Shown here: positions 51,604 through 54,962 of the stretch, piece after piece
How positions within the stretch are numbered: position 1 is the first letter of the stretch
Layout of the letters: every line of letters begins with the position of its first letter
Assembly: GCF_000021985.1 (NCBI RefSeq)
Contig: NC_011901.1
Location: 124,001-188,000, forward strand
Length of the DNA: 64,000 nt
Origin: Thioalkalivibrio sulfidiphilus HL-EbGr7
GTDB taxonomy: Bacteria > Pseudomonadota > Gammaproteobacteria > Ectothiorhodospirales > Ectothiorhodospiraceae
Reading direction: 5' to 3'
The notes under the pieces: model-generated
What the model saw: the letters and a program-made list of their open reading frames with translations, nothing else
Told to the model about the DNA's origin: nothing
The model's database searches: none
Program-made: the position numbers and the translations under genes

Positions 51604-51987
51604 CTACTCGCAGCTGTAGCCGAGCATGTCCAGGCCTTCGCTCAGGTAGTCCGCCACCAGGGGCGTGGCGATCAGGTATTCAGCCGTAGTGGGGGTCCAG
51701 TTGTCCTTGGCTTCGGCCAGGGCGGTGTTCCACTCGTCCGCCTCGTAGTCGCCCCGTCCCATCCACATGAGCGCCACCAGCTGCACCTGCTGCTCCGGGT
51801 CCAGGTCGTCGATCTGGGTCTTCAGGTCCTGGTAGGTCAGGTCGTCGGCGTGGTCGGCGAGTACCTGCAGGGCCCAGTCATCGGCGGGGCTGCCGGGCTC
51901 CTCGGTGATCACCACCTCCTCCTTGGCGTGGAATTCCCGTGCGCGCTCGATGATGGCGCAGACGATGTCCGGATTCATCTCCAGCAT
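51604..51987 (-). CDS. Small acidic protein, DUF3775 family
   Basis: 127 aa. DDWALQVLADHADDLTYQDL and QQVQLVALMWMGRGDY are the family hallmarks; it is acidic and probably helical, with no signal or membrane segment. ATG 51987 has an ideal GGAGG upstream. Function is unknown. Confidence 0.88.
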   Translation of the reverse strand: MLEMNPDIVCAIIERAREFHAKEEVVITEEPGSPADDWALQVLADHADDLTYQDLKTQIDDLDPEQQVQLVALMWMGRGDYEADEWNTALAEAKDNWTPTTAEYLIATPLVADYLSEGLDMLGYSCE

Positions 51988-52061
51988 GGGGTACCTCCGA
52001 TGCGGATGGGTATCGATGCCCGGAGCATAGACCAAGCAGCACGGACGGGTGATCAGGGCTG

Positions 52062-52224
52062 GGAGCCTGTCGGACTTAGGCTGCTCCTACTGCGCCGGTG
52101 GGGGAGCGGCCCATTTTTCCGATCCTTCTCGTCAAATAGCGACGGCTATTCTCCTCGAACGATCGAAAAAATGGCCTCACTCTCCCACTCGGCTCGCTAC
52201 GGGCACCTAAGTCCGACAGGCTCC
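52062..52224. mobile_element. MITE-like element, family B, copy 1
   Basis: 163 bp with 19-bp terminal inverted repeats: GGAGCCTGTCGGACTTAGG at 52062-52080 and its exact complement at 52206-52224. Inside are CGTCAAATAGCGACGGCTAT and an inverted GAGCGGCCCATTTT / AAAATGGCC pair. A second copy of equal length is at 53808-53970. The right end overlaps the 3' end of the spermidine-synthase-like gene and encodes its last residues and stop. Confidence 0.9.
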
Positions 52225-52961
52225 AGGCGGCGCAGCCGCACCGGGGTGCGGGCGAGCCCCCGGGCCGGATGCCCGGCGGGCAGGCGGGCGAGGCGCTGGC
52301 GGTAGCCCCGGGCGGTCAGGGCGTCCTGCAGAAATACGCCCACGGCGTTGTCGTAGCGGGGGTGCTGCAGCATCCAGGCTCTGGAGAAGCGCTGCCGCAG
52401 GGTCGCTTGCCGCAGCAGGGCGCAGGCCTGCAGTTCGCAGACCCCGGGGAAATTGATCACCAGGGTGCCGCCCGGGGCCAGGTGACGCAGCAGCTGCCGG
52501 ACCCAGGGGCCATCCACGGGGATGGCCCGACGGGGTTCGCCGTCCTCGCCGCCAAACAGATCGTCCACCAGGTAGTCGAACTTCGGGCCCCGGTGCCGGG
52601 CGAGCCAGTCCCGGGCGTCGGCCCGGTGCAGGCGGATGCCGGGTCCGGTGAGGCCGAAGAAACACCGGGCAATGCGCAGATGCATAGGATCCAGTTCCAC
52701 GCCGTCGACGCTTTCTGCCCCCAGGCCGCGCAGCTGGCGCAGGGCGGTGCCGCCGCCCACGCCGAGCACCAGCGCGCGCCCGATCACGGGGTCACGGCGC
52801 AGCAGCACGGGCAGACTGAACAGGTCCCAGAGGTGGCCGGTGGCCAGCCGTTCGGGATGGGCCTGGCTGTGGAAGATGCCGTCGGTGTAGAGCCGGTGCA
52901 CCCGGCCGGCGGTGCGCACCTCGTAGCGGGTGCCGCCGCGGGTGCGGGACCAGATGAGCAT
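52197..52961 (-). CDS. Spermidine-synthase-like methyltransferase-fold protein
   Basis: 254 aa. The nucleotide-binding loop LVLGVGGGTALRQLRGLG (about 65-82) and VDGVELDP with LHRADARDWLARH give a SpeE-like Rossmann fold; FDYLVDDLFGGEDG follows. It is too diverged for a confident aminopropyltransferase call. The C-terminal ...LEPVGLRCP is read from the MITE-B terminal repeat, so the original C-terminus has been replaced. Its ATG overlaps the DUF2288 stop (ATGA). Confidence 0.85.
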   Translation of the reverse strand: MLIWSRTRGGTRYEVRTAGRVHRLYTDGIFHSQAHPERLATGHLWDLFSLPVLLRRDPVIGRALVLGVGGGTALRQLRGLGAESVDGVELDPMHLRIARCFFGLTGPGIRLHRADARDWLARHRGPKFDYLVDDLFGGEDGEPRRAIPVDGPWVRQLLRHLAPGGTLVINFPGVCELQACALLRQATLRQRFSRAWMLQHPRYDNAVGVFLQDALTARGYRQRLARLPAGHPARGLARTPVRLRRLEPVGLRCP

Positions 52962-53266
52962 CAGCCGGCGGACTTTTCCTGGATCACCACCCAGGGGGCG
53001 GCCACCACGGCCCAGAAGTCAGGGCGCCGGGTCTGCCAGTCGCGGGCCTGCGCGTCGGTGGCGGGTCCCAGTTGTCCGGCGTCCATCCAGGCGCTGATGC
53101 TGTCCCGGTCGTCCTCCACCATCCGCGCGGCCACTTCCACCAGGTCCAGTTCGGGGGCCACGTGCACCACCACGCCCCGGGCGAAGTGGCGCTCCAGTTC
53201 GGGCCAGGAGATGGGCCCGGTCTCGGCATTGAGGCGGGCGCGGAGTTCGGCGGCGGTGTCGTTCAT
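52961..53266 (-). CDS. DUF2288 family protein
   Basis: 101 aa with the family pattern TGPISWPELERHFARGVVV, DLVEVAARMVEDDRDSISAW and a final FWAVVAAPWVVIQEK. Function is unknown. It is coupled to the spermidine-synthase-like gene through an ATGA overlap. Confidence 0.88.
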   Translation of the reverse strand: MNDTAAELRARLNAETGPISWPELERHFARGVVVHVAPELDLVEVAARMVEDDRDSISAWMDAGQLGPATDAQARDWQTRRPDFWAVVAAPWVVIQEKSAG

Positions 53267-53328
53267 GAATGAAGGCGCTAGAAGCAAGTGGCAAGAGACA
53301 AGATACAAGAAAAATCCTTGATGTGGGG

Positions 53329-53745
53329 TCAGTCGTCTTGGTCGGTCTCGGGCCAGGCGTTGAGCAGGGCGCGGATCTCCTGCTCGTTGCGCGAGCCGAT
53401 GAGTACGCGCTCGATGCGCTCGCCGGCGATGACGATCAGGGCGGGGGTGCCTGTGAGGCGCAGGCGTCGCACCAGTTCGGGTTCCTCCAGGGCGTTGAGC
53501 TTGAGGATGTCCCGGCGCGTCTCCAGCAGCGGGTTGATGATACTGGAGGTCTGGCCGCAGATGTGGCAGCCGGGGCGCCAGAAGTAGAGGATCAGGCGCG
53601 GCTCAAGCAGATGCTTGGGATCGATCAGGTCATCCAGCCGGGGCGCGGTGCAGCCCTCCATGAGCCGGGCGCAGCGGCGCAGCCAGAACTGCATCGCGGC
53701 GAGCAGGCCGAGGAACAGCAGGAAATAGAAGCCGAGGCCGTCCAT
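53329..53745 (-). CDS. Membrane-anchored thioredoxin-like protein, paralog 1
   Basis: 138 aa. One N-terminal transmembrane helix (about 4-22) is followed by a thioredoxin fold with active site RPGCHICGQ (CxxC = CHIC) and the cis-Pro loop LTGTPALIV. By orientation the fold may face the periplasm or cytosol. It is about half identical by eye to the gene at 54251-54640, including the flanking sequence before the start. It should reduce, oxidise or sense thiols. Confidence 0.87.
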   Translation of the reverse strand: MDGLGFYFLLFLGLLAAMQFWLRRCARLMEGCTAPRLDDLIDPKHLLEPRLILYFWRPGCHICGQTSSIINPLLETRRDILKLNALEEPELVRRLRLTGTPALIVIAGERIERVLIGSRNEQEIRALLNAWPETDQDD

Positions 53746-53807
53746 AGAGGAAGGCTCCAGAGGCAAGTGGGCAGCGTCAAGATACAAGTGTAGTGGGTGA
53801 GGTGCCA

Positions 53808-53970
53808 GGAGCCTGTCGGACTTAGGCTGCACCTACTGCGCCGGTAGGAGAGCGGCCCATTTTCCCGATCCTTTTCGTCAAATAGCGACGGCTATTCTCC
53901 TCAAACGATCGTGAAAATGGCCTCGCTCTCCCACCAGGCTCGCTACGGGCACCTAAGTCCGACAGGCTCC
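53808..53970. mobile_element. MITE-like element, family B, copy 2
   Basis: 163 bp, the same length as copy 1 and colinear throughout, with the 19-bp end GGAGCCTGTCGGACTTAGG (53808-53826) and its complement at 53952-53970. Differences are scattered single bases, and the CAAATAGCGACGGCTATTCT core is the same. Flanks differ from those of copy 1, which argues for transposition rather than a block duplication. Confidence 0.9.
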
Positions 53971-53994
53971 TAGGCGGGAGGCGAAAAACCGTGT

Positions 53995-54185
53995 CCTCTC
54001 ACGGAGCCACGGGGCACGGGGTTTTGGATCAGATGACGTTCCCTGCGTCCCAGCGCCTCCGCGAGAACATCATGCCTTTGGTTTTCTCATCCGCAAGCAA
54101 CCAAGCCTCTCGCGGAGGCGCAGGGTCGCAGGGTGAATCAAATCAAGCGCCTTTCCTCCGTGGCTCCGTGCCCCCGTGAGAGGAT
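53995..54185. repeat. Long palindromic repeat family C, copy 2
   Basis: The outer pair CTCACGGAGCCACGGGG / CGTGGCTCCGTGCCCCCGTG and the inner pair GCGCCTCCGCGAGA / TCTCGCGGAGGCGC form a nested palindrome of about 190 bp. It follows MITE-B copy 2, so the 500-nt gap between the two thioredoxin genes is almost wholly repeat DNA. Confidence 0.8.
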
Positions 54186-54250
54186 GGCCTTTTGGTATGT
54201 CGTAGACCGTATAAGCGCAACGCATCCGGCCTGCGTGATCCCCCCCGGGT

Positions 54251-54640
54251 TCACCCCACCAGTTCGCGGATGGCCTTCTCGCTCTTGGCGCCCACCAGGA
54301 TGCGCTGGATGCGGCCGTCGGAAACGCTGAGCAGGGTGGGGGTGCCCATCACACGGAAGCGGCGCGCCAGCTCAGGCTGTTCCATGGCGTTGATCTTGAC
54401 GATGTCGTCGCGGCTTTCCAGCAAGCCGTCGATCACCCGGGTCACCTGGCCGCACATGGGGCAGGCGGGACTCCAGAAGTAGAACACCAGCCTTGGCTTC
54501 GCCAGCAGGAGCGGGTCCAGCAGATCGCTCAGTTCCGGCGCGGGCCTGCCCTGCTGGTTGCGGGTGCGGTACAGCAGCCAGAACTGGAAGCCGAAGTAGG
54601 CGGCGATCAGCAGGGCGAAGAAGACGGCGAGGCGGTCCAT
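54251..54640 (-). CDS. Membrane-anchored thioredoxin-like protein, paralog 2
   Basis: 129 aa. A hydrophobic N-terminal helix (about 4-22) leads into a thioredoxin domain with active site SPACPMCGQ (CPMC) and the cis-Pro loop VMGTPTLLS. It is paralogous to the gene at 53329-53745. The sequence just upstream of both starts (GGAAGGCTCNAGAGGCAAG) is also shared, so the duplication included the leader. The different dipeptides between the cysteines suggest different redox potentials. Confidence 0.87.
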   Translation of the reverse strand: MDRLAVFFALLIAAYFGFQFWLLYRTRNQQGRPAPELSDLLDPLLLAKPRLVFYFWSPACPMCGQVTRVIDGLLESRDDIVKINAMEQPELARRFRVMGTPTLLSVSDGRIQRILVGAKSEKAIRELVG

Positions 54641-54727
54641 GGTGGAAGGCTCTAGAGGCAAGTGGGCAGAGACAAGATACAAGTGTTGGGGGGTGAGGTG
54701 TTAGGCGGGAGATGTAAAGAACAGTCC

Positions 54728-54906
54728 CCTCTCACGGAGCCACGGGGCTTTAGACCAATAAGATTTCCCTGCGTCCCTGCGCCTCCGCGAGAGGATTGGT
54801 TTATTGCAACCCAGCAAACCAAGGGCATGATGTTCTCGCGCAGGCGCTGGGACGCAGAGAAAGTCATTTGTTCCAAAACCCCGTGCCCCCGTGGCTCCGT
54901 GAGAGA
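54728..54906. repeat. Long palindromic repeat family C, copy 3
   Basis: The same outer and inner arms as copy 2 (CTCACGGAGCCACGGGG to CCCCCGTGGCTCCGTGAG), separated from the thioredoxin gene start by a CAAGTGG/CAAGATACAAG repeat at 54651-54683. About 180 bp in all. Confidence 0.8.
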
Positions 54907-54962
54907 ACGAGGGTTTCGTTCCGCCTGCGGGACTTCATGGAAACCGAACCCCCCCAACCACA

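Follow-up and report, generated by a model that had tools for sequence, protein, structure and literature searches.

The window is the whole stretch of 64,000 nucleotides that was analyzed. It contains two 163-bp copies of an element and a gene that ends inside the first of them (Table 1). The two copies had been predicted from the sequence and are present at that length. They are 93% identical, and their flanks are unrelated. The predicted 19-bp inverted ends are perfect in copy 1. Those of copy 2 are perfect over 20 bp, with one target base included.

Table 1. Coordinates of the two elements, their target duplications, and the gene that ends in copy 1
Feature	Position in window	Strand	Basis
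Copy 1 of element	52062..52224	-	163 bp; strand of best fold and best R1 score
Terminal inverted repeat, copy 1 (GGAGCCTGTCGGACTTAGG)	52062..52080	+	Inverted-repeat search
Other terminal inverted repeat, copy 1, read by gene	52206..52224	-	Inverted-repeat search
Decayed target duplication CCAG, copy 1, gene-distal	52059..52062	-	CCAA in ALJ17
Decayed target duplication CTG, copy 1, gene side	52224..52226	-	CTGG in ALJ17
Copy 2 of element	53808..53970	-	163 bp; missing at same place in ALJ17
Copy 2 target duplication CTGG (decayed CTAG)	53805..53808	-	Flank reading
Copy 2 target duplication CTAG	53970..53973	-	Flank reading
Class I methyltransferase/spermidine-synthase-like gene, 254 aa	52197..52961	-	ORF and profile matches
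Element sequence translated as EPVGLRCP and stop TAG	52197..52224	-	ORF translation

The copies were scored with R1, a covariance model of 159 positions built from aligned elements. Copy 1 scored 141.6 bits on the minus strand and 71.7 on the plus strand, and copy 2 scored 142.8 and 69.2 bits; both copies are within the R1 training set. When compared with its own reverse complement, copy 1 shows 76% identity. The other long copies of the chromosome are 72 to 76% identical to that reverse complement, so the elements are imperfect palindromes throughout. The predicted fold energies of copies 1 and 2 on both strands range from -97 to -113 kcal/mol. The element is short, contains no transposase ORF, and has perfect terminal inverted repeats, as a MITE does.

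Other repeats lie nearby. A second palindromic family (CTCTCACGGAGCCACGGGG...) is present at 53985-54184 and 54717-54916, in inverted order around a thioredoxin-like gene. In the sister strain ALJ17, the repeat that corresponds to 53985-54184 is much shorter. Three related 89-nt stretches (53230-53318, 53709-53797, and 54604-54692; 61 to 80% to the reference) share ...AAGTGG..AG...CAAGATACAAG. Each overlaps the start of a minus-strand gene.

Copies, target sites, and IS1182 ends

The original prediction proposed a search for further copies, and these were found. The 163-bp query retrieved 8 long copies (E values of 1.0e-62 to 8.9e-81) and shorter ones from the 3.46-Mb genome (a 3,464,554-bp chromosome). 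The long copies are 162 to 166 bp and the 3 short ones 49, 65, and 82 bp, with the bounds of decayed copies placed by hand. The 8 long and 3 short copies occupy several unrelated sites, which is usual for a MITE. Their usual flanks read CTA/GGAGCC...GGCTCC/TAG, that is, CTAG/GAGCC...GGCTC/CTAG.

The flanks of copy 2 are also present in ALJ17, where they enclose one CTAA and no element. Copy 2 itself is bounded by CTAG and CTGG, a target-site duplication with an empty allele. A clean loss from ALJ17 would, however, look alike. The comparison of copies covered 14 element-bearing loci of ALJ17. Both flanks of 4 of the 11 copies (copy 1, c1948444, c1420422, and c2298850) were found at these loci. 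For c1637759, one flank is similar to two of these loci over 180 bp and is probably a further repeat. The short forms have the same ends and lack the apical part. One of them is common to both strains.

The form found in ALJ17 at the copy-1 gene end is 82 bp long and oppositely oriented (L290:1495-1574). Its internal junction is that of c1420422. One insertion followed by drift is therefore too simple an account of this site. Two independent insertions into one CTAG would fit the different length class and the opposite orientation. Fresh insertions would not, however, share the similarly decayed duplications that are common to both strains (CTG and CTGG on the gene side, CCAG and CCAA on the distal side), and we consider this reading unlikely.

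The MITE ends have the form GAG[C/T]CTGTCGGACTT. GTDB species genomes were scanned for GGAGCCTGTCGGACTTAG, which retrieved at least 120 stretches. Among the matches listed, exact 17-mers stood after CTAG in 111 of 137 cases (at one end of each, the final G was fixed by the pattern), and CTAG flanked both sides of 36 of the 73 complete elements.

These ends are shared with autonomous IS1182 elements, namely that of L150, those of plasmids, and those of MITE-bearing genomes. L150 contains a 1562-bp element with ends GAGCCTGTCGGACTT[G/A]G, CTAG on one side, and TCAG on the other. Its 455-aa transposase matches NF033551 (IS1182) at 363.1 bits (cutoff, 270). L089 (Endozoicomonas) contains a 1550-bp stretch with similar ends (0 and 3 mismatches) and CTAG on both sides. 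It encloses a related, partly masked frame. Plasmid IS1182 regions, including ISAzo2, have [C/G]AGYCTGTCGGRYT ends after CTAG on both sides in 5 of 7 cases; the 2 from Simplicispira and Pseudomonas putida KF715 have one such end. At the IS1182 loci of MITE-bearing genomes, such an end (up to 4 mismatches) was found in 11 of 14, and 10 of these were behind CTAG. A table in PMC3281130 gives a 4-bp repeat for ISPse1, a published IS1182 element.

The ends common to IS1182 elements, the CTAG target, and the empty site in ALJ17 bear out the MITE-like nature that had been proposed. The prediction also called for a search for a matching transposase, and none was found in the genome. L150-like transposases gave 0 matches there at E <= 0.001, and the examined loci of its 11 DUF772 genes had no such end within 4 mismatches. 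A missing donor transposase is common for MITEs, so it should not be disqualifying. An IS1182 homolog (E <= 1e-20) was present in 8 of 31 genomes with MITEs and in 0 of 20 without (p = 0.016; 31 of the 54 R1-positive and 20 of the 344 R1-negative genomes), a contrast that is weak because most of the positives and all of the negatives differ in class.

Both copies are very probably MITEs that were moved in trans by an IS1182-family transposase and inserted into CTAG, judging by their ends and flanks. We only infer IS1182 as the mover, since the search of this chromosome gave no matching transposase. Such a transposase, with DUF772 and DDE_Tnp_1 domains, would recognize the ends given above. Insertion into CTAG would duplicate those 4 bp.

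An IS630/TA origin, guessed from TA-like flanks, was rejected; the duplication is the 4-bp CTAG, and PF13358 (DDE_3) has 0 matches in the genome. Candidates for full insertion sequences found by end pairing (L083, L129, L105, L101, L109, and L169) contain other reading frames and were dropped. A similarity search of plasmid and phage DNA found no element.

ALJ17 has at least 7 copies of an IS1182-like element (L291/L349 and L193-L218, at contig edges) with ends GAGCCTGGGCGGTAGAA at CTAG. These ends, however, match those of the MITE over 7 bp only. One of its copies occupies a CTAG adjoining a MITE end. At L337:228-266, two IS-type ends stand in tandem, CTAG-CAGCCTGTCGGACTTAGC-CTAG-CAGTCTGTCGG, as if an element had inserted at the edge of another or a solo end had been left.

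Gene ends at the element edges

The 254-aa ORF ends ...RLRRLEPVGLRCP and a stop. Its last 28 nt are copy 1, and EPVGLRCP and the stop codon come from the element, as claimed. The label spermidine-synthase-like is fair but weak. The product matches Methyltransf_25 at 23.4 bits (cutoff, 27) and MFS_SpdSyn at 27 bits (cutoff, 40), both below the cutoff.

The C terminus was compared in a MAFFT alignment with 30 homologs of 37 to 50% identity (30 of 31 rows; ALJ17's own gene, L062, excluded). The homologs end 0 to 4 residues past the last conserved Leu (the Leu246 column) in 27 of 30 cases and 0 to 9 residues past it in all 30, with a median of 2. The tail EPVGLRCP is absent from all 30 aligned C termini. 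The original prediction named a repeat-free homolog with the same tail as the opposing case, and none was found among the 30 homolog loci. An R1 search found no element at E <= 0.1 in 29 of these loci (default filters, which partial copies may escape). At the remaining locus, an element lies some 600 bp upstream of the gene.

The ALJ17 ortholog also ends in a member of the family but reads it in another frame. It ends ...HRLGACRT and a stop, versus ...RRLEPVGLRCP and a stop in the window, so the tail is not conserved. The window junction is one base shorter than that of ALJ17. Joined via a single CTAG, the ALJ17 flanks give a reading that ends ...HRLG and a stop. The window's own flanks, when joined, yield no early stop, owing to a further indel; for this reason we infer the ancestral gene end from ALJ17 alone. 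The 30 homologs suggest that the methyltransferase gene lost only a few residues and a stop, and the replaced part was probably that short. That the gene exchanged its original C terminus is literally true, but the loss appears to have been small.

The new tail is probably tolerated and not selected. Its adoption by the protein under selection is very improbable; the intact ORF encodes a product that shares 93% identity with that of ALJ17 across residues 1 to 246, but ALJ17 has GACRT instead and the 30 homologs have other ends.

Other genes end at element edges as well. The fabD gene (L004:1649-2581, minus strand; TIGR00128, 361.7 bits) ends ...ESLAQAL/GACRT and a stop. The part after the slash is encoded by the element, and CTAG is intact on both sides. 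The FabD of ALJ17 (L286) has the same element-encoded tail. Joined without the element, the fabD site reads ...AQALGQVQG and a stop. PDB 1mla, which we take to be E. coli FabD, aligns to residue 306 of the FabD query, just before GACRT, and ends two residues later. RadA (TIGR00416, 640 bits) and an RmuC-like protein (NF007686, 152 bits, far under the cutoff of 810), found among L007 and L008, stop on the TAG of CTAG at the element edge.

The target and the inverted repeat together offer a stop in two of the three frames, at once or after GACRT. Among the matches listed, 26 of 167 CTAG element ends are ORF stops (crude ORFs), and an ORF ends inside the repeat at 9 of 167. At unoccupied CTAG sites in the same loci, 23 of 650 ends are long-ORF stops, compared with 26 of 167 at the CTAG ends of elements (p = 1.7e-7). 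Compared with CTAG outside long ORFs, the count is 26 of 167 versus 23 of 266 (p = 0.03; crude ORFs, related genomes). An earlier control with 238 instead of 266 CTAG sites gave p = 0.09. The shrinkage from 1.7e-7 to 0.03 means that loss of insertions inside genes explains much of the difference, and a stop-codon preference of insertion was rejected as largely explained in this way. The long ORFs that seem capped at c123312 and at c2298850, like the one that ends at c673319, match no NCBIfam model and were left out of the gene count.

Insertion into CTAG keeps the damage at gene ends small. Where the TAG of the target is the stop codon, the gene stays as it was, as in RadA and the RmuC-like protein. 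A frame that reads CTA is supplied by the inverted repeat with GGA GCC TGT CGG ACT TAG, that is, GACRT and a stop, as in FabD and the ALJ17 methyltransferase. In the third frame, translation continues deep into the element. In the window methyltransferase, the junction with one base fewer has shifted the frame, which gives EPVGLRCP and a stop.

A MITE-encoded C terminus may thus be explained stepwise by the CTAG target, the stops built into target and inverted repeat, and a small loss. The fatty-acid gene fabD is a second case, common to the two strains. The tail GACRT with its stop is a possible element signature for gene annotators.

Distribution and hairpin fold

Among the matches listed, the GGAGCCTGTCGGACTTAG stretches come from Gammaproteobacteria and from records with other labels (Geobacter, Desulfobulbaceae, Nitrospirae, Spirochaetes, Verrucomicrobia, Lentisphaerae, Synergistaceae, and others); most of the records not labeled Gammaproteobacteria are metagenome bins, in which contamination is possible. 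Named strains among the matches listed include Massilia glaciei, Pseudomaricurvus alcaniphilus, Endozoicomonas ascidiicola, and T. denitrificans. The length from GAG to CTC is 158 to 162 nt in 49 of the 73 complete elements among the matches listed (several from the same genomes). A Geobacter omcE primer begins GAGCCTGTCGGACTTGG, which is the element's end (primer table of PMC11077965). A family member may lie beside omcE in that Geobacter.

R1 matched 54 of 398 sampled genomes of the phylum (E <= 0.001), or 20 of 213 genera, in a scan with stricter filters and at most 7 candidates scored per genome. One family (f207) contains 43 of the 54 positive genomes. Fifteen of the 43 reached 7 scored matches and so have at least 7. 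R1 did not match the insertion sequences of L150 and, partly masked, of L089, so the interior looks like a family trait and not a remnant of those elements.

Alignments A1 and A2 contain 36 hand-picked elements, 34 of the 52 with 150 to 180 nt and the two window copies. Near-duplicates, 172-nt forms, L084, L109, L124, and L153 were excluded. The aligned elements, from different lineages, have the same length and several motifs in common and differ in their stem letters. Across the 36 elements, paired cells amount to 93.8% versus 76.6% in shuffles, and compensated cells to 348 versus 118. The covariation score, which rests on few independent clusters (7), is 0.478 versus 0.175 when shuffled. 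It was reached by 0 of 500 shuffles, and slid structures scored at most 0.146. Both sides changed in 31 of 34 pairs in helices 3 to 5 (12 of 12, 16 of 16, and 3 of 6).

The long hairpin is found again and again in the family, and most likely it is of use to the element itself. It may be only a palindrome whose symmetry is maintained by templated repair or by template switching within hairpins. The covariation would then be a mutational by-product and the interior without function. Self-correction of long palindromes is known. Short forms without the apical part exist, one of them in both strains, so the full interior is dispensable for persistence. No orientation bias relative to flanking genes, the sign of an mRNA role, was found (14, 11, 10, and 9 in the 44 of 68 elements with two near neighbors; the crude gene calls missed even the gene at copy 1), which also fits a palindrome. 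Symmetrizing repair should, however, erase the similar mismatched positions that are kept, with the same length, in distant lineages. We hold this reading to be quite possible, somewhat short of an even chance.

The hairpin may instead be kept, with its fold conserved across lineages, because one strand (the minus strand in the window) functions as a structured RNA or as single-stranded DNA. The compensated cells speak for this, as does the strand. The consensus energy is -61.3 on the A1 reverse strand (the window's minus strand) versus -39.8 on the other, and the reverse strand folds better in 36 of 36 elements with RNA parameters and in 35 of 36 with DNA parameters. It has more wobble pairs in a strand-neutral self-alignment (G.T pairs, 148 versus 86; 25 versus 5 sequences, 6 ties), but by the 7 clusters the asymmetry is 5 versus 1, with 1 cluster tied (p = 0.22). 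When the other strand's predicted structure is used, which favors that strand's wobbles, G.T and A.C pairs are equal (67 versus 64). Four of the five invariant interior bases are unpaired in copy 1 (G24, G29, A30, and A133; G70 is paired), but conservation in the unpaired interior columns does not clearly exceed that in the paired ones (0.73 versus 0.68, p = 0.16). The even gene orientation also counts against this reading, as does Rfam, which gave no match in window 51900-54300 at E <= 1 and only a tRNA at gathering score in L091, L088, L114, and L107. On this balance the minus-strand function is rather unlikely, and a functional fold overall is at best as likely.

The most far-reaching form is that of a trans-phylum family, mobilized by IS1182, that would carry its own conserved cargo, a strand-specific hairpin of about 125 nt with fixed internal loops. 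We regard it as doubtful. If it is true, the cargo would act as RNA or single-stranded DNA, for example as a form recognized in transposition or as a transcript that shields host genes. The element would then be a mobile structured nucleic acid spread by borrowed transposases, and the cargo no IS remnant. MITE interiors are usually regarded as decaying remnants. In contrast, this element keeps its length and pairing in distant lineages. What looked like a local curiosity is a family that can be searched by covariance model, with a fold that can be tested.

Comparison with known systems

In the open-licence papers searched, neither the wide spread nor the covarying interior turned up. The element's end sequence was not found as a described repeat in the titles and abstract starts of the open-licence literature. 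The main text of a 2024 review of prokaryotic MITEs (PMC10969869) does not contain IS1182.

IS1182 insertion sequences (ISAzo2 in Aromatoleum, L249; L150) resemble the window element in their ends and CTAG target. Unlike it, they carry a transposase. ERIC and NEMIS/Correia are short palindromic mobile elements with long hairpins, some of them in transcripts. They are of the IS630 type and have a TA duplication, whereas the window element has a 4-bp CTAG duplication and no DDE_3 match in its genome. REP/REPIN sequences are likewise palindromic and nonautonomous. They differ in being 20- to 40-bp units tagged GTAG or CGTC according to PMC3733652, compared with 163 bp and 19-bp terminal repeats here.

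MITEPye1 of Paracoccus yeei and the Coxiella QMITEs are the closest precedents. MITEPye1 is alike in build. PMC11578231 gives it 159 bp, 18-bp IS1182-like ends, and 4-bp direct repeats. Like the window element, it has no ORF and a long stem-loop. Unlike it, MITEPye1 is reported there from one species, in intergenic positions, at 1 to 3 per chromosome; the two were compared by their descriptions.

QMITE1 and QMITE2 of Coxiella burnetii are alike in their effect on genes. According to the main text of PMC5896051, they lie at gene 3' ends and supply C-terminal residues or stops. Long stem-loops are predicted for their transcripts, a further likeness. QMITE1 is 300 to 400 bp and QMITE2 150 to 190 bp, compared with 163 bp here. 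They differ in their variable direct repeats (2 to 3 nt in QMITE1 and 7 to 11 nt in QMITE2), and that main text contains neither CTAG nor IS1182. The kind of element found in the window is therefore already known, as MITE-encoded C termini (the Coxiella QMITEs) and a 159-bp IS1182-type MITE (MITEPye1) are both published.
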